From a virus, in IMG/VR virus record IMGVR_UViG_3300023196_000860, positions 1 to 25,150 of that record: 25,150 nucleotides of DNA; one strand, 5' to 3'. This document shows positions 614 through 16,393 of this stretch, in pieces (the stretch's first letter is position 1; each line of letters starts with the position of its first letter). A program made the position numbers and the translations under genes. Below the pieces are notes generated by a model. It was not told the origin of the DNA. It ran no database searches and saw only the letters and a program-made list of their open reading frames with translations.

Positions 614-3600
614 TTATGATAATTTTTGTTTACTTAATTTATTAGCCTCTTGTTCCCACGGAAGTTGTTTAGCTCCTTCTATATATAATTTACCATTGTA
701 AAGTATTTTTGAATCAGCAGTTCGTGGAATTTTTTGGCCTTTCCATGTTATATCAGAATCTGTATAATCTAATTTTCCTGATTTAAATTGATCAAGATGT
801 ACTTGCTCGTGAGCAACTACTTCTTTTCTTTTTTTAGCACTTAAACCAGGTTTTATATCCATAGTTCCATCTTTGTTAGCTCTACCTAATACACCTTCAG
901 GTAATTTATCTGGTACAGGTGATTTTGGTTTTTTAATAGATTTTAATTTTTTTATTTTTTTAGGTTCACTAGCTTTTGAATTTTTATATTCAATATCTAC
1001 TCCAACATTATACGGTGACCATCCTAAAGCTAAAGCTACAGACTGCCAAGCCTCAGTACTATCCTGTGATGCTGCTTTTAAGTTTTCTATTTTCTTAAAT
1101 ACACGATCAGCAGGTAAATTAGTTAAACCTGAAAAATAATTAGCATAAGCAAAGCCTTGGTAAAACGGATCATTTTTATATTGTTTCCATGTTTCAAACT
1201 TTTGACCTTCAACTATATCACTTATTTTTTTACTAATAGGCGGAGATATAGAAAGACCTTTTTGAACAAGCTTTAAAGTTCCATCATAAACTCTTTTTCC
1301 TTTTTCTCTTTTTTGTCTTTGATCATAATATTCCATGCTAAGATTTTTAAGAGCAGCAACTACTGCACCTGCATATCCCATACCTCTTAATATACCATCA
1401 GCAACACTATTTAAAGAATACATTAATTTTTTATCTGTTTCTTTGTATTCTTCATCATCAGCATCACTTAATATTAAAGAAAATAAACCTTGTTGCAGTG
1501 CTGTAAATATAACATTTTGAGCAACGCCATAGTAAAGTATTTTAGAAATATTTGTTTTCCAATCACCTCTACGATTAACTAAGTCTGATGTAGCTTTTCT
1601 AGTTTCACGAGCATACTGCAATGGTGTGTTAGCAAAAGCTAATATAAGTCTACCTATATCTGATGCTTGTTGTCTAGATACTTTATCTACTCTTGATGAT
1701 TGCTGTGCTGTTTCAGAAACTTCTTGAAATTCTAGCATAGCTTGAGCATCTGCATCTGATTCAGACATACCTTCTTTAATTAATTGATTATATCTATTAC
1801 GATACCAAGTAGCACCACCAAATGCAATAGCATTACTATCACCCCATTGCGTAGGTTTAAACCCTGCTTCAAGAACTTTTTTATTTAATCTTAAAAATAG
1901 ATTACCTGGATTAGAATCTGCAATATCAGCTAAGTTAACTTCAATAGCCATACCTCCTCTTCTTTCTTTTAAAAAATCAGAGTTTATTATTCTAATATAA
2001 TCTTTCATAAACTGAGGCACATTAGCCATAGCAATACCCATTTTAATAGGATTATTAAAACTCCAGTTCATGTAGTTAACAATAGACATTTGCTGTAGTA
2101 TAGCAGATCTCATGTTAATAGCCATAACAGCGCCAACAGATTGATTGATCCAATTCATTGCTGAATTAAATTCTTTATCTTTACCTTTCTTACGGTTTTG
2201 ACCTGTTTCCATTCGTTCAAGAATATTACTAAGCGCATCAGTATAATCATTACCATATATTTGCTTAATAAGCTTCATGTTTTGATCAGAGAATATTTGA
2301 TTTTTATTATTAGTAAATTCTTGCAAAAACTCTGCTCTTTGAGCTCTGTTAGAAACAACAGCCATATCAGTAGAAATACTACCACCTAACCATTGTTCTG
2401 TTATAGGTGGATAACCAGCATCTAGCTTAGTTATTTTAGATAATTCTTCTGCATAAGCCTTTAGCTCAGAGTTACCTTCAACTAGAGCAATTAAATCTTG
2501 AGTATCAGCTTTATTAAGACCTAAGTCTTGACCAGCTTTATCATAAAGATAAGCACGAACAGCTTGTTCGTTAGTGTATATACCACCTAAAACATTTTCA
2601 CTGAGCATTCTTCTAAATTTAGTAGGTATACCAAGTGTTCTAGTGTTTTTAAATCTTTTATTTAAAGCTTTAAAATCATTAGCTAGTGTTACTTTAGCTG
2701 TAGTGTAGGCATTTATACCTTGAGCAAAAGGTGTTAATAAGTTTTCTTCAAACCATTTCATTTGCTCGTCACCTAATTTACCTTTAGCTTGAAAATATTT
2801 AAGTAATCCTGCAAAGTCATCAGCTCCTGGAGGTATGTATATATTAAACCTACTTAGAAACTTACCTATTTTAGATCTTTTCTTACCTCTTATAAGTGAA
2901 TCCATTTCATCTTCAAGATTTCTTTGACCACTTTCTTTAGCCTGTTGTACTCTTTTAGTTACACCTAAATTATCTAACATTCTAGCCACAGCGTCAACGT
3001 TAGCTTTAGAATCATCAGCAAAGAATACATCATTGTAACCTTCAGATACTTTTTCAGCAACCCACATAGCTTTAGCGCCAGGCTTACCATTAGCAAGTCC
3101 ACTTATGTTTTGTAAAGGTATACTTATGCCTAAGGTAGATCTTAAAAATTCTTGTATAGCTTCAGCTGCTTCAGCAGGTCTAGCTGTTAAAACAAAAACA
3201 TCTCTATCGCCTTTAGATTCAGTAAAACGCTTAGCAAGTGTAGCCAGAGGCCCTTTACTACCATCTTTTACTTGGTTAAACTCTGAATAATCAAAAGTTG
3301 CTCCCGCTTCCTGTAACTCATTATATTGTTCAGCAAATTGCGTAGCATCTAAACTACCTGTTTCACCAGGTATATTAAGGCTAAACTCTACTTCAAAATC
3401 AGCTTTATTTTCTCCATCTTTATTATTAATATTAACATCATATGTTTTACCATTAATAACAAAGTTAGTATTTAAATTACCAGCTTCATCTTCTGTTAAA
3501 TTATACTTACCTTTTGTTTTTATTTTTTTACCACCGTTTTTAGGTCTTACTAATTCAAAATCTTGAGTACTAGGTTTACCTAAAAAAGAAGTTTCATAAT

Positions 3601-6600
3601 TATCAATTTTCCAACCAAGATCTTTGCTTAATTTTTTAGTAATAAAATCATACAACTTAACTCTACTTGGCTCTCTAGCATCAGAACTAAACCTAAGGCG
3701 TTCTATATTTGGATTTTTACTTATTGCATTTAAAACTTCATTATAAATTATAGTTCTAATAGCAAAAGCATCACCAGTTCCTGTTAACTCTTGAGTAGTT
3801 GTGTCTGGAAGCGTATAGAGTACTTTAGAATTAGTCTTAGCTAGTGTATCATCAAAATCAAACACTCTAGCTTTTTTCTTAGGAGCTTTTGTATTAGAAC
3901 CTACAACTTTAGCTTTTCTAAGAATATCTATTTTTTCAATAATTTCATCCGTAGTTAAACCATCAATGTCTATGCCAAATTCTTTTAATAAACCGTAATT
4001 ACCTTGACGAACTTGCTCTTGTAGTTTTGCTACGCCAGCTTCGTTCATAATCATTAACTTAACCTGTGCAGGATTGTTTTCATTACGAACTTCTTGAGAT
4101 GAATTAGATACAAAGTCAGACCATTCTTGAGAAGACATATAATCTTTAACTTTACTATAGCCATCAGCTATTGCATCCGCTAAAGCTTTACCACCTTGAT
4201 AAGCTAATTTAGTTGCTCTTAATCCTCCAATAAGTATATTAACAGGTACAGCACCTAAGTTTGTTTGTAGCGTACCCTCTGTTCCAGTAAGCTCTGTTAA
4301 CTTAGCTATAGCTCTATCAATTAAGTTTTCTACTTGATCAGAGTTATTAGCAGTAAATGCATCGCTAGAAGCTTTTTTTCCGTCTATTGTGTCAGGACCC
4401 TCAACTTTATATTTTTTATCTAAACTTTCTTTACTTTCAATATCTATTAAAGAACTTAAATTAATTTTAGATTGTATTAATCTTTCTATACCTACATTTT
4501 CATCAAATATAGTCATACCATTTGGTAAAAAAGAACTAAGTTTATTATTGTCTATTAAAACATCATCTTTTTTAGATAATTGTGTTTGAAAAAAGTTTTT
4601 TCTAATAGAAGGAAACATAGAATCTATAGAATTTGTTGATATTCCAAAAATTATGCTAGCAGCTATTCTTGAAGCAGGGGGACTATGTTCTTCTCTGTAT
4701 TTTAATTTTTTGTTTGGTTCTAATCCAGCTTGATCTTTGCTTGCGCCGTCTTGAACTCTACCATATTCAAACTTTTTAGATCTTATTTTAAATGGAGCGG
4801 CTGCTTTTATTAAACCATCCGTTGCTTGAAAACTTCCAGTTATAAACCTAGCTATAGTAGCTATGTCTACACCATTTTCATTAACAGCTTTGTTTAATAT
4901 TTTAGTCATTTCCTCTAAAGCATTCATATTATAAGCTGACTGTTCTTTTCTGCTTATTTTAGAACCTTGTGGTATTGTATTTAAAAATTCTTCTGTTACA
5001 ACAGTACCAGATCCATCTTTTCCTTTAGGTAATTTTATTGTTTTGTAATTAGAAAAATCTTTATTGTTTTTATTGTTTTCAGTTGCGGCTTCTAAAGCTG
5101 CTATATATGCAGGATCAGATTTACCATAATATAGTTTGTTTTTTGAAGGAACTAAACCTGTCATTCCAGGTTGCATAACTCCATTTACCTTTGTTCCTAA
5201 AAAAAACCTAGGATCATTATTTAATATAGTACCACCGTCAGCTAAACTGTATCTTCTTAATGGTTTAAATTTACCGTTTTTACTTTTAAACCTAACATTA
5301 CCATCTTTAGATTCAAAATTTATTCCGTCTATTTTACCAATAAAATCATCCACTGTAACAGTAGAATTTACAGCACCACCAACACCAAACATTGCAGATT
5401 CAAAAACCCAAGATGGAATATTTCCATTTTTTATTGCGTTTAAAACTTGACTTTGTATTTTAACTCTACTTTTGTTATTTATACCAATATAATCTATATC
5501 TAAAGCATTTAAAACTTGACCAATATTTTTAGCTTTTAAAGATGTAGATATATATTTTAGTAAATCATAAGCTTTTTTTCCTACTAAATTTATATAAGAT
5601 TGTTTTTGTTTGTTAACAGAAACATCAACAGCAGCTTTTTTAAACTCTTCAGTTTGTTGTTCTTGTTGTTGTTGCTCAGCAAACCTCTGTCTAAACTCAG
5701 TATCATTTTCTAATAGATTAATAGCTTCACGTGCGCCCATAGAAACAGCTAATGCTTCAACTAAATGCATCTGTCTATCTGATCTAGTGTTTTTAGCTAT
5801 ATTAGGATCTGTTATATAATTTAATATACCGTCAACGCCTAATTTATTTAATGAAACTTTTTCTAAAACTCCATTAACATCTTTTAAAAAACCAGCTTCT
5901 ACAAAAGGATTTATACCACCTTTACCTCTAGCTTTACGCATTGCCTCAACTGACATTGCATCGTAAAAAGCCGATGGATTTTCTTCTATAGCATTAGTTA
6001 AACCTTTATTTGTTTTAGTATCTTTTAGTCCTAGCTTTTGTTTTATATCAGTATATAAAGCATCTTTAAAAGTCTTAGCTATATCTGATTTAAATTTAGT
6101 TGCATCTACTTTTTGTTGTGTGGTTAACAAAGATCTTTTAGCAACATTTTTAATTGTTGTTAATAAATCGTTACTAATGTTCAAAGCTTTAGCTGTATTT
6201 ATATTTTTAATTTCTGGTGCAACTTCTGAATCTTCTTCAGCTATAATACTTTGAACAGCATTGCTTTCTAAATCTTTATTAAAAGTTTGATTAGATATAC
6301 CTTCTAAAGCTCTAGCACTTACTGCTCTTTTTCTTAATATACCTTGAACATAAGCACCTAAAGGTATAGATCTATTATATGTTCTTAATACGTCTAATAA
6401 TTCTGTTTCTAAATTACTTTCATATTCAGCTTTAGTTCCTCTACGTAAATCTTGTGGTATTGCGTTGTAAACTTGATTTGAAAGTTTTTTTATAAAAGGC
6501 TTTTGTGTTTTAATTATAGCTTTAAAAGCTTTGTCTGATATTACATTTTTACCATCTTTATCTTTTGTTATAGTGCCTTCTGTTACGCCATCATCAAAAG

Positions 6601-8695
6601 CTTGTTGTAAATCTTTTGACGCTTGAATACTACTTTCCTTAACGCTTTCAACACTTTCATTAACTTTAAATACTTTATTTTTAATGTCGTTATTTTTAGC
6701 GGCATACTCAGATGTTAATCTAGTAAAATCTGCTTCATATTGATTTTCTGATATTAAACCTTCATCAAGCTTAGCTTGTAAATCAATTAAATCATTATTT
6801 AATTTTTCTTGATTTGTTACTTTACTTGTAGCTGGCTTTATAATGCTTAATCGTATTTTTTCTAATTCTTTTTTATATTCTTCCGTAAATGAACCATCTT
6901 TATTTCTTATATTTTGTGTAGATTCATCAGCAACTCTAGTTAAAATTTCAGATATTTTTTGATCTGCTTGTTTTATTTTTAATTGAAAACCATCTCTAGA
7001 CATTTGGTAATCAGTATTGTCTAAACCAAATTCTTTTTGTTCTTCTAGATTTTCAATTTGTTCTTGGGCATTTGTTATTTCATCATTAGCTTTTATAACA
7101 GTATCAATATCTTTATCAGATAATTTTCTAGCAAGCTTATTACCTCTTCTTAATTCTGTTTTAAGTTGAGATTCAACAACATTAATAGCATCTTGCATAC
7201 CTTGTTTAACATCAGGATCTTTAGTCAATGCTTGTCTTTGCTTTAAAACGCCTAAGCTAAATAAAGAATTAGATGCAGTACCTTGAGTGTGAACAGGCGC
7301 ATGATCTCTAATTATTCTAGCTGCTTTTCTTAATTGAGAACCACCTGTTATAAATAATCTACTTCCAATAAAAGACTGTGCTATTACCTCAGGAACTTGA
7401 TCCCAAAAGTTTTCTGAAATATAATCTGTATATTCATCTCCTTTTAATTTTTTAGCTTCAGCTTGATTAATTAATTCTAAAGGAAGTTGAAAAATTTCTG
7501 TAATAGTTTCTGCAGAAGCGCCCACAGTACCTGGCGCAGCTTTAGATGCTTTTGCTAATAATCCATTTTTACCAAATCCTGCAAGCATTGCTTTTGCATA
7601 ATTTTTAGCACCTTTAGAAGCTAATTTACCAGTTAGAGCTCCACTAAGCCCTTTAACGCCAATAGTTTCTAAACCAGAAGCAGCTCCAGCTAAAAGCATA
7701 GGTGTTGCAACTTGTTCTTTATTCTCTTTAAACATTTTAGCTATGGCTTCTTCCTCAGGAAGATTAGGATATAATGCTTTAGCATTTTCTACATTAAAAT
7801 CAACATAAAATTGAGGAGCTAATTGTGTAGAAAAAATAGTTCCAACTGTTGCTATAGTACCAGCTATAGGTCCACCAACTACAGTACCAGCGGCCCCACC
7901 AATCATAGCTGGAATTGCCGATGTTAAAACGCTTGCGAATCCATTAGCCGCACCTCCAACCATACTAGCAACGTCTCCTTGTTTAGCTCCTTCTACAAAA
8001 CCTTGACCTGTTGTTTTTAAATTTTTTCTTAATTTCTGTAATTCATTAAATATTTCTATTTTTTCTTTATCAAAAGCATTGTTTATTTTTGTAGCTTGTT
8101 CTTTTTTTAATTTTACCTGCTTAGGAGTATCTAAAACATTGGCGCCTATGCCAAATCCTAAATTATTAACACCTATTTTACCAGTCTCTTCAATTGTTTG
8201 ATACTTTAGAGCATTAAAATTTTCTATTGACATATCAAAAAGAGTGGGAACGTTTTCTATTATAGCATTTTTAAATGCTTCTAAACTACTTAACTTTTCT
8301 CCTTTTTCATTAACGGCTATTTTAGTTTTTTCACCTAGTAAAGATTCGTCGATCTCGCCTGTTGACTTATATTTTTCATAAGCCTTACGTTGATCCATTT
8401 CAAAATTACCTTTATCAAATTGAAACTTAATTGATTCTATATCAAAATCTTCTTCTACAGTATTAGGTTGTGATTCCGACGAACCAAGATCCGATTGCGA
8501 TTCCGTAACGACGGTTTCCGCCGCTGCAGGTGCAATCTCGTCCTCTACAACGGCTTCTGTCTTTACTTCTTCTAATGTATCATCTTTTTTTGTGATACCA
8601 TACTCATTTACATATTCATCAACACTCAATCCTTTAGCTAATGCAGCCTCTTCTACTTGTTCAAGTGAAAATTGTGTACCGTTGTATTCAAACAT
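614..8695 (-). CDS. Giant virion protein with HAD phosphatase and HExxH peptidase domains
   Basis: This 2693-residue protein takes a third of the window. Its order is: a short opening domain (MFEYNGTQFSLEQVEEAALA), of a kind I associate with giant phage virion proteins; an acidic linker (about 45-85); a Gly/Ala-rich hydrophobic segment (about 241-290) and another near 328-355; and long coiled coils (about 480-720). A HAD phosphatase domain follows (about 1608-1910: Asp1613, Asp1615 and Thr1617 in DFDDT; Thr1837 in LTARP; Lys1871/1875; Asp1894-Asp1895 in FADDS). Then come helical regions including ANTPLQYARETRKA, and a C-terminal metallopeptidase domain (about 2599-2690: His2629-Glu2630 and His2633 in HEQVH, with Glu2681/2683 in LPWEQEA). 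No lytic transglycosylase motif was seen. It fits an ejected protein (T7 gp16 position) or a polyvalent protein delivered with the DNA. The enzyme motifs are seen; delivery is inferred. Confidence 0.82.
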   Translation of the reverse strand: MFEYNGTQFSLEQVEEAALAKGLSVDEYVNEYGITKKDDTLEEVKTEAVVEDEIAPAAAETVVTESQSDLGSSESQPNTVEEDFDIESIKFQFDKGNFEMDQRKAYEKYKSTGEIDESLLGEKTKIAVNEKGEKLSSLEAFKNAIIENVPTLFDMSIENFNALKYQTIEETGKIGVNNLGFGIGANVLDTPKQVKLKKEQATKINNAFDKEKIEIFNELQKLRKNLKTTGQGFVEGAKQGDVASMVGGAANGFASVLTSAIPAMIGGAAGTVVGGPIAGTIATVGTIFSTQLAPQFYVDFNVENAKALYPNLPEEEAIAKMFKENKEQVATPMLLAGAASGLETIGVKGLSGALTGKLASKGAKNYAKAMLAGFGKNGLLAKASKAAPGTVGASAETITEIFQLPLELINQAEAKKLKGDEYTDYISENFWDQVPEVIAQSFIGSRLFITGGSQLRKAARIIRDHAPVHTQGTASNSLFSLGVLKQRQALTKDPDVKQGMQDAINVVESQLKTELRRGNKLARKLSDKDIDTVIKANDEITNAQEQIENLEEQKEFGLDNTDYQMSRDGFQLKIKQADQKISEILTRVADESTQNIRNKDGSFTEEYKKELEKIRLSIIKPATSKVTNQEKLNNDLIDLQAKLDEGLISENQYEADFTRLTSEYAAKNNDIKNKVFKVNESVESVKESSIQASKDLQQAFDDGVTEGTITKDKDGKNVISDKAFKAIIKTQKPFIKKLSNQVYNAIPQDLRRGTKAEYESNLETELLDVLRTYNRSIPLGAYVQGILRKRAVSARALEGISNQTFNKDLESNAVQSIIAEEDSEVAPEIKNINTAKALNISNDLLTTIKNVAKRSLLTTQQKVDATKFKSDIAKTFKDALYTDIKQKLGLKDTKTNKGLTNAIEENPSAFYDAMSVEAMRKARGKGGINPFVEAGFLKDVNGVLEKVSLNKLGVDGILNYITDPNIAKNTRSDRQMHLVEALAVSMGAREAINLLENDTEFRQRFAEQQQQEQQTEEFKKAAVDVSVNKQKQSYINLVGKKAYDLLKYISTSLKAKNIGQVLNALDIDYIGINNKSRVKIQSQVLNAIKNGNIPSWVFESAMFGVGGAVNSTVTVDDFIGKIDGINFESKDGNVRFKSKNGKFKPLRRYSLADGGTILNNDPRFFLGTKVNGVMQPGMTGLVPSKNKLYYGKSDPAYIAALEAATENNKNNKDFSNYKTIKLPKGKDGSGTVVTEEFLNTIPQGSKISRKEQSAYNMNALEEMTKILNKAVNENGVDIATIARFITGSFQATDGLIKAAAPFKIRSKKFEYGRVQDGASKDQAGLEPNKKLKYREEHSPPASRIAASIIFGISTNSIDSMFPSIRKNFFQTQLSKKDDVLIDNNKLSSFLPNGMTIFDENVGIERLIQSKINLSSLIDIESKESLDKKYKVEGPDTIDGKKASSDAFTANNSDQVENLIDRAIAKLTELTGTEGTLQTNLGAVPVNILIGGLRATKLAYQGGKALADAIADGYSKVKDYMSSQEWSDFVSNSSQEVRNENNPAQVKLMIMNEAGVAKLQEQVRQGNYGLLKEFGIDIDGLTTDEIIEKIDILRKAKVVGSNTKAPKKKARVFDFDDTLAKTNSKVLYTLPDTTTQELTGTGDAFAIRTIIYNEVLNAISKNPNIERLRFSSDAREPSRVKLYDFITKKLSKDLGWKIDNYETSFLGKPSTQDFELVRPKNGGKKIKTKGKYNLTEDEAGNLNTNFVINGKTYDVNINNKDGENKADFEVEFSLNIPGETGSLDATQFAEQYNELQEAGATFDYSEFNQVKDGSKGPLATLAKRFTESKGDRDVFVLTARPAEAAEAIQEFLRSTLGISIPLQNISGLANGKPGAKAMWVAEKVSEGYNDVFFADDSKANVDAVARMLDNLGVTKRVQQAKESGQRNLEDEMDSLIRGKKRSKIGKFLSRFNIYIPPGADDFAGLLKYFQAKGKLGDEQMKWFEENLLTPFAQGINAYTTAKVTLANDFKALNKRFKNTRTLGIPTKFRRMLSENVLGGIYTNEQAVRAYLYDKAGQDLGLNKADTQDLIALVEGNSELKAYAEELSKITKLDAGYPPITEQWLGGSISTDMAVVSNRAQRAEFLQEFTNNKNQIFSDQNMKLIKQIYGNDYTDALSNILERMETGQNRKKGKDKEFNSAMNWINQSVGAVMAINMRSAILQQMSIVNYMNWSFNNPIKMGIAMANVPQFMKDYIRIINSDFLKERRGGMAIEVNLADIADSNPGNLFLRLNKKVLEAGFKPTQWGDSNAIAFGGATWYRNRYNQLIKEGMSESDADAQAMLEFQEVSETAQQSSRVDKVSRQQASDIGRLILAFANTPLQYARETRKATSDLVNRRGDWKTNISKILYYGVAQNVIFTALQQGLFSLILSDADDEEYKETDKKLMYSLNSVADGILRGMGYAGAVVAALKNLSMEYYDQRQKREKGKRVYDGTLKLVQKGLSISPPISKKISDIVEGQKFETWKQYKNDPFYQGFAYANYFSGLTNLPADRVFKKIENLKAASQDSTEAWQSVALALGWSPYNVGVDIEYKNSKASEPKKIKKLKSIKKPKSPVPDKLPEGVLGRANKDGTMDIKPGLSAKKRKEVVAHEQVHLDQFKSGKLDYTDSDITWKGQKIPRTADSKILYNGKLYIEGAKQLPWEQEANKLSKQKLS

Positions 8696-8719: not shown

Positions 8720-10261
8720 TTAGGGAAGATTTACTGGAGGAACTATACCTAGCATTCCAGTAGAAGTATTGGTTGTTTTTATTTGCTTTAATTTAGCATC
8801 TCTAGCGTCTTTTATTCTTTTTTTTCTTTTTGCAATGTTTTCTTTCGCTATTTCATTAGCTTTTATTATAGCTTTTTTATTAGCTAATTGTTGTTGTTTT
8901 TGTCCTTTTGCATATCTCATATAATCTGGACCAGTGATATATTCTAAAACATCATCAGAATTAGTTAAATCTATTTTTATAGTTTTATCTGGAAAAGGTG
9001 TACCTTCATTGCTTTCAGCACCGCCTTTTATTATTGTTATAACTTCATTTTCTTCTTTAAAGTCTTTAACATTAGGAGCATATTTGTCATCTTCAATAGT
9101 TATATCATCTATATTAAAACCACCTTCTTTATTTTGATAACCTTGATCAGTTTGTTGAATAAATAAAGCATCTGGTCTTGATTCAATAGGCTTTAAAAAA
9201 CGAGTTTGATCTAAATAAGTTTTTTGTATTTGTGCCATTTCTGCAGCTAAATCGTCAGTAGCATATAGCATTGCTTCAGCTTCTGTCATCTTAGCATTAT
9301 CATTTCCAAATCTTATTTGTTGTTCTTTTGTTAAAGAACCTAATGTTTTTCCAGGCATAGAAGGTCTAGACACTTCTCCCGTCATATACTTATGAATTTT
9401 TTCATCTAATTCTTCTTCAGTATATTTTAAAACATCCATACCATACCTTTTATATCCATTTTCTCCTAACTCTCCTATTGATTTAGATATATCATTTGTT
9501 TCTTGTTTCAAATCAAAAACTGGTAAAGGATTTTTTAAAGGATTATCTAAATATGCTTTGTATTTTGTTTTATACGTATTTCTAGTTACATCTAAAACAT
9601 CTGTAATATTACCAGCACTTTCTTGAATTCCTGGTAAATTTTTTTGAAAATCTCTTAATGGTAAATTAATATCATAACCACTACTTGTTTTGCCTATTAA
9701 TCTAGTTTCTCCATCTACATAATCAATGCCTCCACCAAATTTACCATCAGCCAATTCCTCATACATTTCTTGCCACTGAGGTTCCATTGCTTTAGATATA
9801 TTACCAGTTAAAGCACCTTCTGCAAAAGAAGCTATATTAGTATTTAATGTTGCTTGAGCATTTTTTAATAAAGGTATTTGATTTGTCAACTTTTTTAAAG
9901 CCATAGCTCTCTTATCACTATCCATGTCTTTATCATTGTAAATACTAGTATATGTTTTTACAAGTTGATTAGCTGAGTAGTCAAATATTTGATTAACATT
10001 ACTATAATCTTTACCATCTGCTCCTGCTGGTATTTTGAAAGTGTTTTCAGTTTCTCTATTAAACTTATCAACAACAAGCTGTTGAGCTTGTGCAGCTCTA
10101 TCTTGTCTTTCTTTTTCAAGTTGTTGATTTCTTCTTTTTGTCTCTTGAAGTCGCATGCTTGAAGATACTGAATTTATTGCATTAGCTGTTTCTTTAGCCG
10201 CAGCAGCTCTACCAGCCGCTTGCGCTTTTGCAGCAGCTGTAAAATCCCATGAAATTGCCAT
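8720..10261 (-). CDS. Helical virion protein, probable internal/ejection protein, 513 aa
   Basis: I do not recognise a family. The 513-residue product starts MAISWDFTAAAKAQAAGRAA and continues as an Ala/Gln/Arg-rich helix (residues 5-65). It then becomes mixed helical with several acidic patches, and ends in a strongly basic Lys/Arg/Ala helix (about 460-500). There is no signal peptide, membrane segment, lytic motif or Cys pair. It sits between the membrane-segment protein and the giant protein. That position and its helical make-up match the middle partner of a podovirus ejection set (T7 gp15 position), which forms a tube with the giant protein after leaving the capsid. The role is an inference from order. 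The leader is AT-rich with no Shine-Dalgarno. Confidence 0.66.
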   Translation of the reverse strand: MAISWDFTAAAKAQAAGRAAAAKETANAINSVSSSMRLQETKRRNQQLEKERQDRAAQAQQLVVDKFNRETENTFKIPAGADGKDYSNVNQIFDYSANQLVKTYTSIYNDKDMDSDKRAMALKKLTNQIPLLKNAQATLNTNIASFAEGALTGNISKAMEPQWQEMYEELADGKFGGGIDYVDGETRLIGKTSSGYDINLPLRDFQKNLPGIQESAGNITDVLDVTRNTYKTKYKAYLDNPLKNPLPVFDLKQETNDISKSIGELGENGYKRYGMDVLKYTEEELDEKIHKYMTGEVSRPSMPGKTLGSLTKEQQIRFGNDNAKMTEAEAMLYATDDLAAEMAQIQKTYLDQTRFLKPIESRPDALFIQQTDQGYQNKEGGFNIDDITIEDDKYAPNVKDFKEENEVITIIKGGAESNEGTPFPDKTIKIDLTNSDDVLEYITGPDYMRYAKGQKQQQLANKKAIIKANEIAKENIAKRKKRIKDARDAKLKQIKTTNTSTGMLGIVPPVNLP

Positions 10262-10277
10262 ATTAATTTATTGATTA

Positions 10278-11642
10278 TTAGTTTGGTCCATATCCTTTTT
10301 TATAATACACACCATCACCAACAGCTTTGCCGGCGGCGCTTATACCTGCTGTTAATGATCCTCTTATTGCCTCTTGTTGTCCCTGTACTAAAGCATCTGC
10401 ATTCACAGATTGTCCTCCTCTTATTTGTGTTATATCAGATTGCTGTTGGTATTCTCTACCTTGAGTATCCATGTCGCCTGCTCTTGATAATCTATCAGCT
10501 TCAAAACCTGATTGTGCTTCAAATTTTAATCCTTCGTTAGTAGCGCTAGTATTAAATTGATTCATTTGATTTCCAGCACCAAACTCAGTTAAATTATACT
10601 GGTTTTGAGATTGTGTGTCTGCCATGCTAAATTGATTTTGAGCACCAATATTAAATTGATCCATTGCATTAGCAGCTTGAAATCTTGACTGAGCAAATTG
10701 ATTTTGAGCCTGTGCTTTAAACCTTGCTTGTGTATTCATAGCATCTGCTGTAAATCTATTAGCTTGATTTTTTGCATCAGCACCAAACTGAGCTGCTTGA
10801 TTAGCTGCTTGAGCACCAAATTGCGCAGCTTGATTTACTGCGCCAACATTAAATTGTGATTGGCCTAAGTCAAACTGTGATGCTAAATTGCCTTGAGCTA
10901 ATTGTGCTCTTTGTAATTCTCCTTCACCACGAGCCCTTAACATTTCGTTTTGTTTAACTTGTTGATCAATACTAGAGGCAACTCCTTGTTTAGATTTTGC
11001 AGCAGCAGCGGCTAAAGCGGTTGCGCCACCAGCACCAGTACCAGCTTGAGCAGCTAAATCTTGTGATGCAGCTAAAGCTTGATCTGCTTCTTGAGCCTGC
11101 ATTTCAGCGGCTGCTGTAGAAACTTGCAAGTTATTCATTGTATTTGTTAAACCTGTATTAGCACCTCTTTGTAATTGTCCAATATTTGTACCTTGAGCTG
11201 TATAACCTTGAGATGTATACCCTTCTCCTTCGTATCCTTGAGCTGAATATCCTTGTGCTTGAGCTAAAGTATTAGCCTCTCTTTGAGCTGGATCTCCAAA
11301 TTTAGCTCTTTCTTTTAATTGAGCTAATTCTGCTTGTGCTGGATCATAAGAAGCGCCTTCCATACCTTCATATGCATTAGTAAATTCAATGTTTTCTAAT
11401 TCTTTAATTTCTTCCTCAAGTAAATCTGCTTTTTCTGCCGCATCTTTCTTTTTATCTTTTATACCTTTTGATTTTATCAAAGCATTAGCTCCGCCAGCAA
11501 CAACAGCAGCACCAGCAGTTACTAGAGCAGCTGTTCCAACTCCTACTGCTACAAAAGATCCTTTTATTATATCAGTATTTATTTCACTAGATAAATTAAT
11601 GCAAGCATCTTGCAAAGGTTGTAATATTAATAATATATCCAT
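10278..11642 (-). CDS. Membrane-segment and hendecad-repeat protein, probable internal virion protein
   Basis: This 454-residue protein has one strong hydrophobic helix at about residues 29-56 (VAVGVGTAALVTAGAAVVAG), then a Lys/Glu-rich coiled segment (57-85). Next come five Gln-Gly-Tyr pentapeptides (129-153), a long Ala/Gln-rich helical zone and a run of 11-residue repeats (252-401). The end is Gly-rich (KKGYGPN). Cys, Trp and enzyme motifs are almost absent. A single membrane helix plus long amphipathic repeats fits a protein that enters the envelope during DNA delivery, the role of T7 gp14, and the order 454-513-2693 residues parallels T7 gp14-gp15-gp16. This is an analogy of layout, with no claim of homology. 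The start is ATG at 11642 with an AT-rich leader and no Shine-Dalgarno. Confidence 0.72.
   Translation of the reverse strand: MDILLILQPLQDACINLSSEINTDIIKGSFVAVGVGTAALVTAGAAVVAGGANALIKSKGIKDKKKDAAEKADLLEEEIKELENIEFTNAYEGMEGASYDPAQAELAQLKERAKFGDPAQREANTLAQAQGYSAQGYEGEGYTSQGYTAQGTNIGQLQRGANTGLTNTMNNLQVSTAAAEMQAQEADQALAASQDLAAQAGTGAGGATALAAAAAKSKQGVASSIDQQVKQNEMLRARGEGELQRAQLAQGNLASQFDLGQSQFNVGAVNQAAQFGAQAANQAAQFGADAKNQANRFTADAMNTQARFKAQAQNQFAQSRFQAANAMDQFNIGAQNQFSMADTQSQNQYNLTEFGAGNQMNQFNTSATNEGLKFEAQSGFEADRLSRAGDMDTQGREYQQQSDITQIRGGQSVNADALVQGQQEAIRGSLTAGISAAGKAVGDGVYYKKGYGPN
10440..10889 (-). repeat. Run of 11-residue (33-bp) coding repeats
   Basis: Residues 270-401 of the 454-residue protein divide into twelve consecutive 11-residue units without a gap: NQAAQFGAQAA, NQAAQFGADAK, NQANRFTADAM, NTQARFKAQAQ, NQFAQSRFQAA, NAMDQFNIGAQ, NQFSMADTQSQ, NQYNLTEFGAG, NQMNQFNTSAT, NEGLKFEAQSG, FEADRLSRAGD and MDTQGREYQQQ. 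Asn at position 1 and Phe at about position 6 recur. A further unit (NLASQFDLGQS, from residue 252) precedes, separated by a 7-residue stump. The DNA copies have diverged, so this is a protein-level repeat. Confidence 0.85.
11184..11258 (-). repeat. Five QGY pentapeptide (15-bp) repeats
   Basis: Residues 129-153 of the same protein read AQGYS, AQGYE, GEGYT, SQGYT and AQGTN. This is a tandem Gln-Gly-Tyr array of 15-bp units, still partly alike at DNA level. Tyr/Gly/Gln pentads are usually flexible or self-associating, so this may be a linker between the membrane helix and the hendecad rod. Confidence 0.8.
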
Positions 11643-12355: not shown

Positions 12356-15300
12356 TTATGATAATTGAGATATTGTTATACTTCCTGGTGTTAATCCTGT
12401 TACTCTAGGATTAGTGTTAGTTACAGAAATACTTCCGCCTCTTTGTGATCCTGTATTATTATCGCTTACAGATACCGTAAAAGTTTCTTCTGCAGTTAAA
12501 TTAACAGTAGCATTACTACCATTTATTAATATCCAAGGATCTGATGGAACTAACTCTGTGCTAACATTACTTAATGCAGTAATCGTAGCTGGACTTGAAC
12601 CGCTTGCATTAAACGGAGGTTCAGCTGTTGATCCTACTTGAGCATCAACTGGTCCACCTGTTACAGTTGTTATAGCACCTATATCAACGCTAGGTGAAGT
12701 TAACACAATACTATACACCGCACTAAAGTTTGTACCCGCATCTATAGCTGTATTTGTTGTAGATGCGACTGCTGCGCCACCTGCAGAGCCATTTGTTATA
12801 GCAAATGTAGCACTAGTAGGCGTCATTGTTTTAGTGCTAGGTATACCTGTATATGTTACTGTTGCTGTAACATTAGATTCATCAAAAGGTGAAACTTTGT
12901 ATATTGTTCCAGGATATGGCGAACTAAATACTGCGTTAGTCATATTAACAGTAGGTATTGTCCAACTTAAATTAGTTTTAGCTGTTGCAGTTCCAGTTAC
13001 ATCAACTGTTCCTGAAGCTGGTAAAGCTGGCACTGTTAAATTATAAGTATATACTGCATTGTCTTTATTATTAGCTATTGCAGGTAGTGGAGCTGTTGCT
13101 CTTGTAACAACCGGCGGTAAAACAGGATTAAATGAAGATATTCCAGATGTATCTAAAGTTACATTACTTGGATCTATATAATATCCATCTTCTGCTAATA
13201 AAGTAAATTGAGCTTGACCTGTACCGGCATTATTAAACACTTGAGATGCAGGCGTAAGATCTGAGAATGTTACAGCATCATCTGTATTTATTGTTAATAA
13301 AGCAGGTAAATTAGCTAACACAGCACCTACACCACCAACATTTATTGTTTGAATAGAATCTGTGCTTCCAACAGTGTAAGAAACTCTAAATACTATGTTA
13401 CCTTCAGAGGTTAAACTAGTTGGATTTATAACACTTAAACTTGTATTACCTGAAAGAGTTATATCTGTAGGTAAAATAAAATTATAAGCAGAACTTATAG
13501 GTCTTGCTGTTATTATCCAAGTTATAACATCGTTTTGTTTACCAATTAATGTTGATTCACCTGTAACACTACCATTTACAGCTGTACCTATTATCTGCAA
13601 CGATGTAGATATTATTGTTGCAGGAGTGGGCAATGTACCCATACTAGAAACATCTGTTTCAATAAAATCTAATGTCCAACCAGTTGATCCTTCATAACCT
13701 ATAGTGTTAAATTGTTTTATAGTAGAAGGAGATTCATTAAATATAGGTTCAACATATGATGGTTGAGTGCCTAAGCCATAAAAGTTATTTCTAAAACCAA
13801 CCGTTGGATCGTTATGTTTCCATAGGTTACCTGTAAAAAACGTGTAATAAGTATTATTTAAGCTTAAACCTGATTCTTGATTAAAAGATCTAAAGCTACT
13901 CCAGCCTTGAGAGTTTTCGTCAAACGCTAATGTTAAATATCCATCTGCAGCTGTGCCTACGTTTGTATCTTCGTTACCATCAAGGCCTTGACCAACTATT
14001 GTTAACATAAACAAACTAGAGTATTCATCATAACTACCAACAATACTTGTTGAAGCTTTTAATGCGTCTCTAAAAAAGTCAGCCATACCTATACTAGATA
14101 TTTCTTGTATACCTTGAGGTGTTAATTTTAATACAGTACCATTGTTTTTATCTGTAAAGTACTTATTAAAGCCAAACTCAGCATATGATAATGGATCTTG
14201 AGATATTCCAAATCTACCTGCATAAGGTGCAACTGTACCTAAAAATTGTGTATTACTAGTTACAGGTATTTGACCACCTTCAGCTGAATATATAAAATCT
14301 TTATCAATAGGTGATCTAGATATTTTATCTTCTTGAAATATTAAAAGTTGAGTATCGTCTGCAGCAAGTTTTTGTATAGCTCCGTCTTGTGGATCTACTG
14401 ATATTGTTAAACCGCCTTCAGACTCATTAAATTGATTTATATAGTTAATACCTGTTCTAGAGTTAAAAAGTCCACTAGAGTGTATTAGAGTGTTAAATCT
14501 TAGCTCTTCTGCAAAGTTTTCTTGAACAACATAAGCTCTAACACCTACATCAAAAAAAGTTTCATTAAAAGCAGCTCTTAGTCTATTTAATTCTATATGT
14601 GCTCCTGATCCAGTTGGATTAAAGTCTAATAAATAAGAATTAAAAAAATCTATGTTTATTGCTACACCTGTTATAGATGATACTAAACCACCTGTAGATG
14701 TTTCATAAAATATATCTAAATCAGACTCTACTGGTTGCGTTTCAAAAACACATATACCAGACGTTACGCTTGTACCAGAATTATTTACCGTAGTTGTAGA
14801 CGCTGTGCCTGTTGGATTAGCTATAGATTGTATTGACTGTAATGCTCCGTATGTTGTAGAAAATATATTTTGACCTCCTACGTACTTAGGATAAACAGAT
14901 ACGTCACATGGAGATATTGTAGCTGAAGTACTTGGTGGTATAGCAGCTGTTTGATCTCTTGGTATTTTATTTTGACTATCACCTAATCTTTCAACAGTAT
15001 TAGCTGATGACACACCTGATATCCAATTGTAATATTCTTGTTCACGTTGTTTAACAACAACTCTATATGAGTAAGCCCAAGAAGGTATTTCGTTTGTAGG
15101 ATCTGCAAAAGTAATTCTCAAAGCATTAAATGCAGTTGTTGAATCAGCTGAACCCGTGTTTGGATCTATAAAAACAGTATCACCGCCTGAGTTTGATAAT
15201 ATTACAGGCGATTGTCTACCAAATTTATCGGCTAAAACAATACCTATTTGATATGTTCTTCTTGATTTTAAAGAAAGAGGATTTTTACCTGGCCCCCAGC

Positions 15301-16393
15301 TTATTCTTGATGAATCTTCACCAGTTCTACTTACGCTAAAGTTTATATTAGGTATGTTGTAGTTTTGTAAAAAATTACCATAAACTAATCTAGCACCTAC
15401 TAGTTCTTGAGATTGAGCTATTCTAGGAACAGCATCATATACTCTTGTTAATTGATCACTTGGTAAAGTTCTAAATGGATCTTGAGATGCATAGAAAAAG
15501 TTTATAGATGTTTCACCTGCAACAGGCTTATCTTCAACAACATACAATGCGCTAGATCCTGTTTCTTTATATATTAATTCAACTTGAGTAATGCCATATC
15601 CGGCTGGAGTAGGTATTTGTAATTGCACAGATTTTATAGCATTTACAAATGTTTCTATTTCTCCAAAGTCATTAATGCTTGTAGATATTGTATCAGGATT
15701 ACCTAGTCTTGAAAATATAGTTGTACTAAAAGGTGCTAATGTGCTATACTCACCATCATCAAATTTCCATCTGTATGAAAATCTAACCATTTTATCTTCT
15801 AAAAAGTTAGATGTTATTGGTTGGCCTTGTTCATCATTTGAACCTACCGCTAAAACAGTTGGTGATTCATATGGTGCAAACTTAGCTACTGAAGCTAAGT
15901 TATCAAAAGCACCAGATGTATAATATGTAGGATCATTTACTGCTCTTACAACATTTATTTTTCTTGGTGGATTACGATTATCTGTCCAAAATAAAAGATC
16001 ATCAACTAAGTTAATGCCTGATATTTTAAAATCTTTGTGAAAATTTAACGATGAACCACTAACTAAAGTTCTTAATTGTTTAGATGATTGATCGTAAGAA
16101 AAAATACCGTGCTCTCCACCATTACTTCCATCATAAGAATCATTTGAAGTTACATAAAAGTATATTCTATCATCACTATTGCTTCTATAAGAACCTATAC
16201 ATGATCCACCAGTTATACCTGAAGATGCAACTTGAATATTACCTAGTAAATTTTCAATAGCACCCATGTCGGCACTTTCTGATTTACCTACATTTATATT
16301 TAATGCTTCTCTATATTCACCAGCTGGCACTAACCTATCATCTAGGTCTCGATTCATTCGGCCACCGTTGAACATTCTTTTAATTTCTGGCAT
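12356..16393 (-). CDS. Tail stabilization (muzzle) protein with tandem beta domains and BACON-like end
   Basis: This 1345-residue protein is a tail nozzle candidate. The start (MPEIKRMFNGGRMNRDLDDR) and the next motif (LVPAGEYREALNINV) are the hallmark opening of the stabilization or muzzle proteins of crAss-like and marine podoviruses, counterparts of P22 gp10 or T7 gp12. Residues 1 to about 915 form that core, rich in strands. From about 915 to 1280 come tandem beta-rich, Thr/Ser/Pro-rich segments of roughly Ig-like size. The last 60 residues (about 1283-1345) look like a BACON domain: SDPWILI with Trp1287, then FTVSVSDNNTGSQRGGSISV and a final ITISQ. Such C-terminal domains probably protrude from the tail and may bind host glycans; that is inference. 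The stop is one base from the next start, at a junction identical to the one at 610-624. Confidence 0.85.
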   Translation of the reverse strand: MPEIKRMFNGGRMNRDLDDRLVPAGEYREALNINVGKSESADMGAIENLLGNIQVASSGITGGSCIGSYRSNSDDRIYFYVTSNDSYDGSNGGEHGIFSYDQSSKQLRTLVSGSSLNFHKDFKISGINLVDDLLFWTDNRNPPRKINVVRAVNDPTYYTSGAFDNLASVAKFAPYESPTVLAVGSNDEQGQPITSNFLEDKMVRFSYRWKFDDGEYSTLAPFSTTIFSRLGNPDTISTSINDFGEIETFVNAIKSVQLQIPTPAGYGITQVELIYKETGSSALYVVEDKPVAGETSINFFYASQDPFRTLPSDQLTRVYDAVPRIAQSQELVGARLVYGNFLQNYNIPNINFSVSRTGEDSSRISWGPGKNPLSLKSRRTYQIGIVLADKFGRQSPVILSNSGGDTVFIDPNTGSADSTTAFNALRITFADPTNEIPSWAYSYRVVVKQREQEYYNWISGVSSANTVERLGDSQNKIPRDQTAAIPPSTSATISPCDVSVYPKYVGGQNIFSTTYGALQSIQSIANPTGTASTTTVNNSGTSVTSGICVFETQPVESDLDIFYETSTGGLVSSITGVAINIDFFNSYLLDFNPTGSGAHIELNRLRAAFNETFFDVGVRAYVVQENFAEELRFNTLIHSSGLFNSRTGINYINQFNESEGGLTISVDPQDGAIQKLAADDTQLLIFQEDKISRSPIDKDFIYSAEGGQIPVTSNTQFLGTVAPYAGRFGISQDPLSYAEFGFNKYFTDKNNGTVLKLTPQGIQEISSIGMADFFRDALKASTSIVGSYDEYSSLFMLTIVGQGLDGNEDTNVGTAADGYLTLAFDENSQGWSSFRSFNQESGLSLNNTYYTFFTGNLWKHNDPTVGFRNNFYGLGTQPSYVEPIFNESPSTIKQFNTIGYEGSTGWTLDFIETDVSSMGTLPTPATIISTSLQIIGTAVNGSVTGESTLIGKQNDVITWIITARPISSAYNFILPTDITLSGNTSLSVINPTSLTSEGNIVFRVSYTVGSTDSIQTINVGGVGAVLANLPALLTINTDDAVTFSDLTPASQVFNNAGTGQAQFTLLAEDGYYIDPSNVTLDTSGISSFNPVLPPVVTRATAPLPAIANNKDNAVYTYNLTVPALPASGTVDVTGTATAKTNLSWTIPTVNMTNAVFSSPYPGTIYKVSPFDESNVTATVTYTGIPSTKTMTPTSATFAITNGSAGGAAVASTTNTAIDAGTNFSAVYSIVLTSPSVDIGAITTVTGGPVDAQVGSTAEPPFNASGSSPATITALSNVSTELVPSDPWILINGSNATVNLTAEETFTVSVSDNNTGSQRGGSISVTNTNPRVTGLTPGSITISQLS

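Follow-up and report, generated by a model that had tools for sequence, protein, structure and literature searches.

What an array of 11-residue repeats does in a putative ejection protein, and how it came to be there, is the question raised by the locus analyzed here. The window (the whole stretch of DNA that was analyzed, 25,150 nucleotides, positions 1 to 25,150 of IMG/VR record IMGVR_UViG_3300023196_000860) is a fragment of a short-tailed, marine phage related to Cellulophaga phage phi38:1. The repeats lie in the product of a gene that we call P0001.

P0001 occupies the gp99 position of a phi38:1-like late operon

The portal and muzzle proteins put the window near Cellulophaga phi38:1, the Flavobacterium elemo phages, Maribacter phage Panino, and Tenacibaculum phage Gundel. 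Its gene order (TerL, portal, scaffold, capsid, ring, ring, muzzle, small gene(s), P0001, P0002, giant) is that of phi38:1 gp90–gp101, and the slot of P0001 is occupied in phi38:1 by gp99, which is a virion structural protein of 200 aa and has no repeats. The order muzzle, P0007-like small gene, P0001 is also the common one among the array-bearing relatives described below. The genes of this cluster are as follows.

10278..11642, minus strand: P0001, 454-aa putative ejection protein, at the phi38:1 gp99 position (ORF, gene order, profile comparison)
8720..10261, minus strand: P0002, second member of the putative ejection set (513 aa), in the slot of phi38:1 gp100 (gene order)
614..8695, minus strand: P0005, third member and a giant protein (2693 aa), in the slot of phi38:1 gp101 (gene order)
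12356..16393, minus strand: P0004, muzzle-like tail protein, upstream landmark of the cluster (crAss_MUZ_C, phrog_14478)

A reading made earlier from the sequence alone (the sequence-only reading) had labeled P0001 an ejection-type protein. Though unproven, this label is well supported by the late-operon position of the gene before two larger proteins, which is the layout of T7 gp14-15-16, and an ejection role is likely because of this position. P0001 resembles ejection proteins of the T7 gp14 or P22 gp7 type in being the first of a three-gene set with increasing sizes. Profile comparisons detected no similarity of P0001 to T7 gp14 (0.6%) or P22 gp7 (1.5%), and at 454 aa it falls outside the range of 181–240 aa given for gp14-like ejection proteins in a review that describes their size as varying little (PMC8954989). 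Direct HMM searches of Pfam and PHROG with P0001 gave no matches and hence no known family, and tblastn searches of cultured phages with P0001, P0002, and a short relative (L008) returned nothing.

Elsewhere in the cluster, P0005 (614–8695) contains a stretch, FDFDDTLAKT, like that of HAD phosphatases, and its C-terminal VVAHEQVHLDQ (HExxH) could be a metalloprotease motif; family matches were weak only. The C-terminal extension of the muzzle-like protein (12356–16393) weakly matches BACON.

P0001 contains a gap-free array of 11-residue units

The sequence-only reading had described twelve gap-free copies of the unit N-Q-x-x-x-F-x-x-x-A-x between 10440 and 10889. The repeat is real and lies inside this interval, which on the minus strand corresponds to residues 252–401 of P0001; the motif is correct, and no gaps were found in the array. 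Over these residues, self-identity at a lag of 11 was 44/144, compared with 15.3 ± 3.5 (highest value, 35) in 20,000 shuffles. The self-comparison also showed harmonics (lags 22, 33, and 44), whereas identity fell below background at lags 10 and 12. Ten successive Asn residues occur at exact 11-residue spacing from residue 270 to residue 369; the longest lag-11 Asn run in 20,000 shuffles was 5, and Asn runs at the other lags tested (5 to 19) did not exceed 3.

Two parts of the earlier description need adjustment. The count of twelve is slightly generous, since the Asn is present in ten units and the other two, one at either end, are degenerate. In addition, the array holds to residue 383, and the final ∼18 residues of the interval are no longer periodic. 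Seven of the ten Asn units have an aromatic residue at the expected place, and in two the aromatic is shifted by two residues; the consensus of this ten-unit core is Q-F-N/G-A-G/Q-A-Q-N-Q-A-A. The parts of P0001 are located as follows.

11499..11555, minus strand: hydrophobic N-terminal segment, residues 30–48, possible membrane helix (Kyte-Doolittle mean 2.11)
10890..11144, minus strand: conserved core, residues 167–251 (alignments; AlphaFold helices 167–199 and 206–330)
10494..10889, minus strand: array including the degenerate unit at either end, residues 252–383
10527..10856, minus strand: array core of ten 11-residue units, residues 263–372 (Asn in 10/10)
10617..10652, minus strand: predicted hinge in the array helix, residues 331–342 (AlphaFold gap, low pLDDT; gap at the equivalent unit of the relative L037)

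In its DNA the repeat is old: adjacent array units are 36–73% identical in sequence, and TRF detects only 2.5 copies of a 33-bp unit. The conserved core preceding it consists of a helix, a Gly-rich turn (GTGAGGATAL), and a helix that continues into the array, and alignments place the same core in relatives that lack an array. A second repeat in P0001, at 11191–11259, has a 15-bp period and a 5-residue unit, QGYxx, that occurs about five times.

Array length changes by whole units among relatives

A profile search of IMG/VR found 80 loci, which after deduplication gave 51 proteins with the array start motif (the window included). Members of the P0001 family reach 517 aa. Other relatives, of 197–330 aa, contain the conserved core and no array. 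When compared with the profile of the phi38:1 gp99 family (phrog_13764, virion structural protein), the short relatives matched with 96.9% probability and the array-bearing family with 87.0%. By way of the short relatives, the core of P0001 is homologous to the gp99 family by profile, P0001 itself being without a direct PHROG match, and the two share a late-operon slot that follows small tail genes and precedes the genes of two larger structural proteins. Unlike P0001, the gp99 family members have 200–225 aa in phi38:1, Panino, elemo, and Gundel (302 aa in ctfjg026) and no 11-residue array.

Because the short, array-less set matches the gp99 family, the array seems to be optional, having been inserted into or added onto members of a small family. 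The sequence-only reading had named homologues without periodicity as evidence against it; the only ones found are these short relatives, which are without the whole module. In a scan of genome contigs, the one relative found was distant and had no array; it lies in a Flavobacteriaceae MAG. The membrane helix that had been noted upstream of the array is clear in P0001, but it is not conserved, as only 16 of the 51 array-bearing proteins have a segment with a Kyte-Doolittle value of at least 1.6.

The array is set in a constant register to the core, with 36 residues from the KSK core motif to the array start in 50/50 measurable proteins. Distances from the array start to downstream non-repeat anchors were 141, 152, 163, and 174 aa in one set (20 proteins), 124, 135, and 146 aa in another (12 proteins), and 102 and 113 aa in a third (4 proteins). 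In a subclade of 5 proteins, the distances of 148 and 159 aa are offset from the others by a non-multiple of 11. The forecast that unit number would change among homologues in steps of 11 residues was thus borne out exactly, anchor to anchor, over 102–174 aa. Such steps can also be explained by recombination between 33-bp repeats. Across the relatives, the Asn phase is retained in 83% of array units.

Some relatives with or without the array (L018, L023, L036, L041, L048, L054, L077, L078, L091, and L114) carry a ∼70-aa end module, SDRRLKK...DxVDYSxxDVEFK, that is Peptidase_S74-like and falls below the Pfam cut-off. A Pfam search found no Peptidase_S74 domain at the C terminus of P0001.

The array is predicted to form a long helix with two hydrophobic stripes

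Among the array residues sampled from the 51 proteins, 33% are Asn or Gln, 32% Ala or Gly, 10% Phe, 10% charged, and 0.0% proline. Averaged over these proteins, hydrophobicity power has its maximum at 98 degrees per residue, in agreement with the 3.67 residues per turn that had been deduced from the repeat period. AlphaFold predicts helices at residues 206–330 and 343–442 of P0001, separated by a gap at 331–342, with pLDDT values of 77–84 over residues 271–320. For the relative L037, it predicts helices at 153–263 and 271–379, with a gap at the equivalent unit and pLDDT values of 41–56 in the array. Based on the lack of proline, the 98-degree peak, and the AlphaFold helices, a helical array is supported over a disordered one; we rejected disorder on these grounds, with the caveat of the low pLDDT in L037. 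The monomer models have a pTM of only 0.29–0.34 (P0001 and L037) and therefore speak for the helix, not for its packing. Foldseek searches of BFVD and the PDB with the monomer model gave nothing significant, as expected because the model consists of long helices, and a profile search of the PDB gave no match.

On a 98-degree wheel, the array has two hydrophobic stripes, at phases 2, 6, and 10 (Phe/Ala/Met) and at phases 11 and 4 (Ala/Phe), which are separated by Asn/Gln faces and have their centers roughly 147 degrees apart. This angle is the one expected if each helix of a ring with some 10–12 members touches two neighbors, and it may hint weakly at such a ring. In the window, the 98-degree moment is clear in units 2–6 only, and the second half of the array is without a clear moment.

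A possible rod or tube for DNA entry

The ancestor of P0001 was probably a protein of ∼200 aa in which a Gly-rich turn joined two helices, and the second helix would have been lengthened in P0001 by the array of 11-residue units. The array would be a long, straight α-helix with 3.67 residues per turn, in which 10 units measure ∼16.5 nm, and the two hydrophobic stripes between Asn/Gln faces would let each helix pack on two neighbors, as in a helical barrel or bundle. We infer that P0001 would be ejected and that several copies would then align into an amide-rich rod or tube, which would contact DNA and help it to cross the envelope and whose length would be set by the number of units. That P0001 comes first in a set of three ejection (pilot) proteins in a short-tailed phage of the phi38:1 kind, with an array that forms a rod or tube for DNA entry, has in our judgment an even chance of being correct.

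An oligomeric rod or tube is favored because the DNA pilot protein H of phiX174 forms a tube of similar length to ten P0001 units. In protein H, a hendecad/heptad segment makes up a 17-nm decameric helical tube (PDB 4JPP, PMC7354561), and the lumen of this tube is lined mostly by the amide and guanidinium side chains of Asn, Gln, and Arg (PMC7354561). Protein H shares with P0001 an Asn/Gln-rich hendecad helix and an N-terminal hydrophobic/Gly-rich segment, and by analogy its tube may be the best mechanistic counterpart of the P0001 array. In contrast to P0001, H belongs to an ssDNA phage and has three hendecads followed by heptads, compared with at least 10 units of variable number, and profile comparison found no sequence homology between the two (0.5%). 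The building of periplasm-crossing channels by short-tailed phages is known for few models only. A first-position protein that ranges from about 200 to >500 residues by whole helical units would offer a natural length series for the genetic control of channel length, and P0001 could be a dsDNA-phage counterpart of the phiX174 tube in marine phages.

The main rival reading is that the array is a packing element of the virion, in which about twelve array helices would form a lining in the tail barrel or in the lumen of the portal until ejection and would have no channel role. The window encodes a crassvirus-type muzzle domain, and in the crAss001 virion the tail barrel is lined by helices of cargo protein 1 (gp45; PMC10172136), 12 copies of the gp45 helix being arranged in this way. 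Like P0001, gp45 is encoded just after the muzzle and has an N-terminal membrane segment and helical parts. Unlike P0001, it has no long array; profile comparison with gp45 showed no similarity (2.7%), and like arrays occur in phages outside this group. With these points on either side, we regard packing in the virion as possible but unlikely. Near its C terminus, gp45 (L249:11988–14516) has a helix-SGGNR-helix-like stretch in which FN pairs recur at a spacing of roughly 11; this stretch is core-like by eye only, the profile comparison being negative.

It is improbable that the array forms the trimeric coiled-coil stalk of an external fiber, with the S74 module of some relatives acting as a folding chaperone. 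Several relatives do have the weak S74-like end, and some similar genes are annotated as tail spike or fiber, but the S74 matches are below the Pfam cut-off and absent from most relatives and from the window, and annotated ejection proteins also end in S74. The gene position, which is typical of gp14-type proteins, and the hydrophobic N terminus of the window protein also argue against a fiber.

Still less probable is a membrane-surface or membrane-lining amphipathic helix like that of the apolipoprotein or synuclein 11-mers, a form that the sequence-only reading had also entertained. The 11/3 periodicity with Phe stripes and the N-terminal hydrophobic segment would suit such a helix, but the moment is weak in the second half, the faces are rich in Asn/Gln (one third of the array), hydrophobicity is low (the most hydrophobic 19-residue stretch averages about 0.2), and Lys/Arg residues do not border a hydrophobic face, few being in flanking positions.

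Similar arrays occur in other phage proteins

A search with the array alone found like arrays in other phage proteins, including a group that matches phrog_4287, "DNA ejection protein." Like P0001, these proteins (e.g. L119, L122, and L137) have an NQ/F/A hendecad array after a helix-Gly turn-helix core; unlike P0001, they have the core sequence AGAFGGSRQ, arrays of 15–45 units, and an S74-like end. Arrays in L119, L122, and L137 have up to 26 consecutive Asn residues at 11-residue spacing (26 in L137) and a 22-residue superperiod. In this group, the distances between the FGGSRQ and GFGxGQ anchors were 165, 253, 264, 341, 385, and 495 residues, all multiples of 11, and array-less members had distances of 59 and 70. 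Array proteins of another lineage reach about 1085 aa. A third group was judged by aromatic runs, as anchors matching for a distance comparison were not found there; an aromatic run of six at lag 11 was present in 58/58 proteins tested, and the cultured Roseobacter phage CRP-235 has a run of seven, its units being weak. Two matches on 6-kb contigs (L121 and L125) were considered as microviruses, and this assignment was rejected on their neighboring ORFs, which are tailed-phage-like. Searches of open-licence PMC papers yielded no description of such arrays in podovirus ejection proteins.

These array groups and P0001 may share ancestry or may have converged. That several tailed dsDNA phage lineages carry a modular hendecad ejection-protein helix that builds an amide-lined DNA-conducting tube, convergent with that of phiX174 H and evolving in length by whole 11-residue units, is a tentative proposal that we think unlikely. 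The 495-aa arrays of the phrog_4287-type lineage would be about 74 nm long if straight; because such arrays exceed the periplasm, a simple ruler cannot hold for all lineages. Least probable of all is a neutral low-complexity spacer whose length drifts up and down as its 33-bp repeats recombine, for although the anchor distance is highly variable in the phrog_4287-type lineage and the units of L137 are near-identical, the window units have diverged in DNA sequence yet their Asn phase is retained in relatives, the register to the core helix is fixed, and none of the 51 arrays contains proline. L137 also has expanded Gly-Tyr repeats that resemble the QGYxx repeat of P0001.
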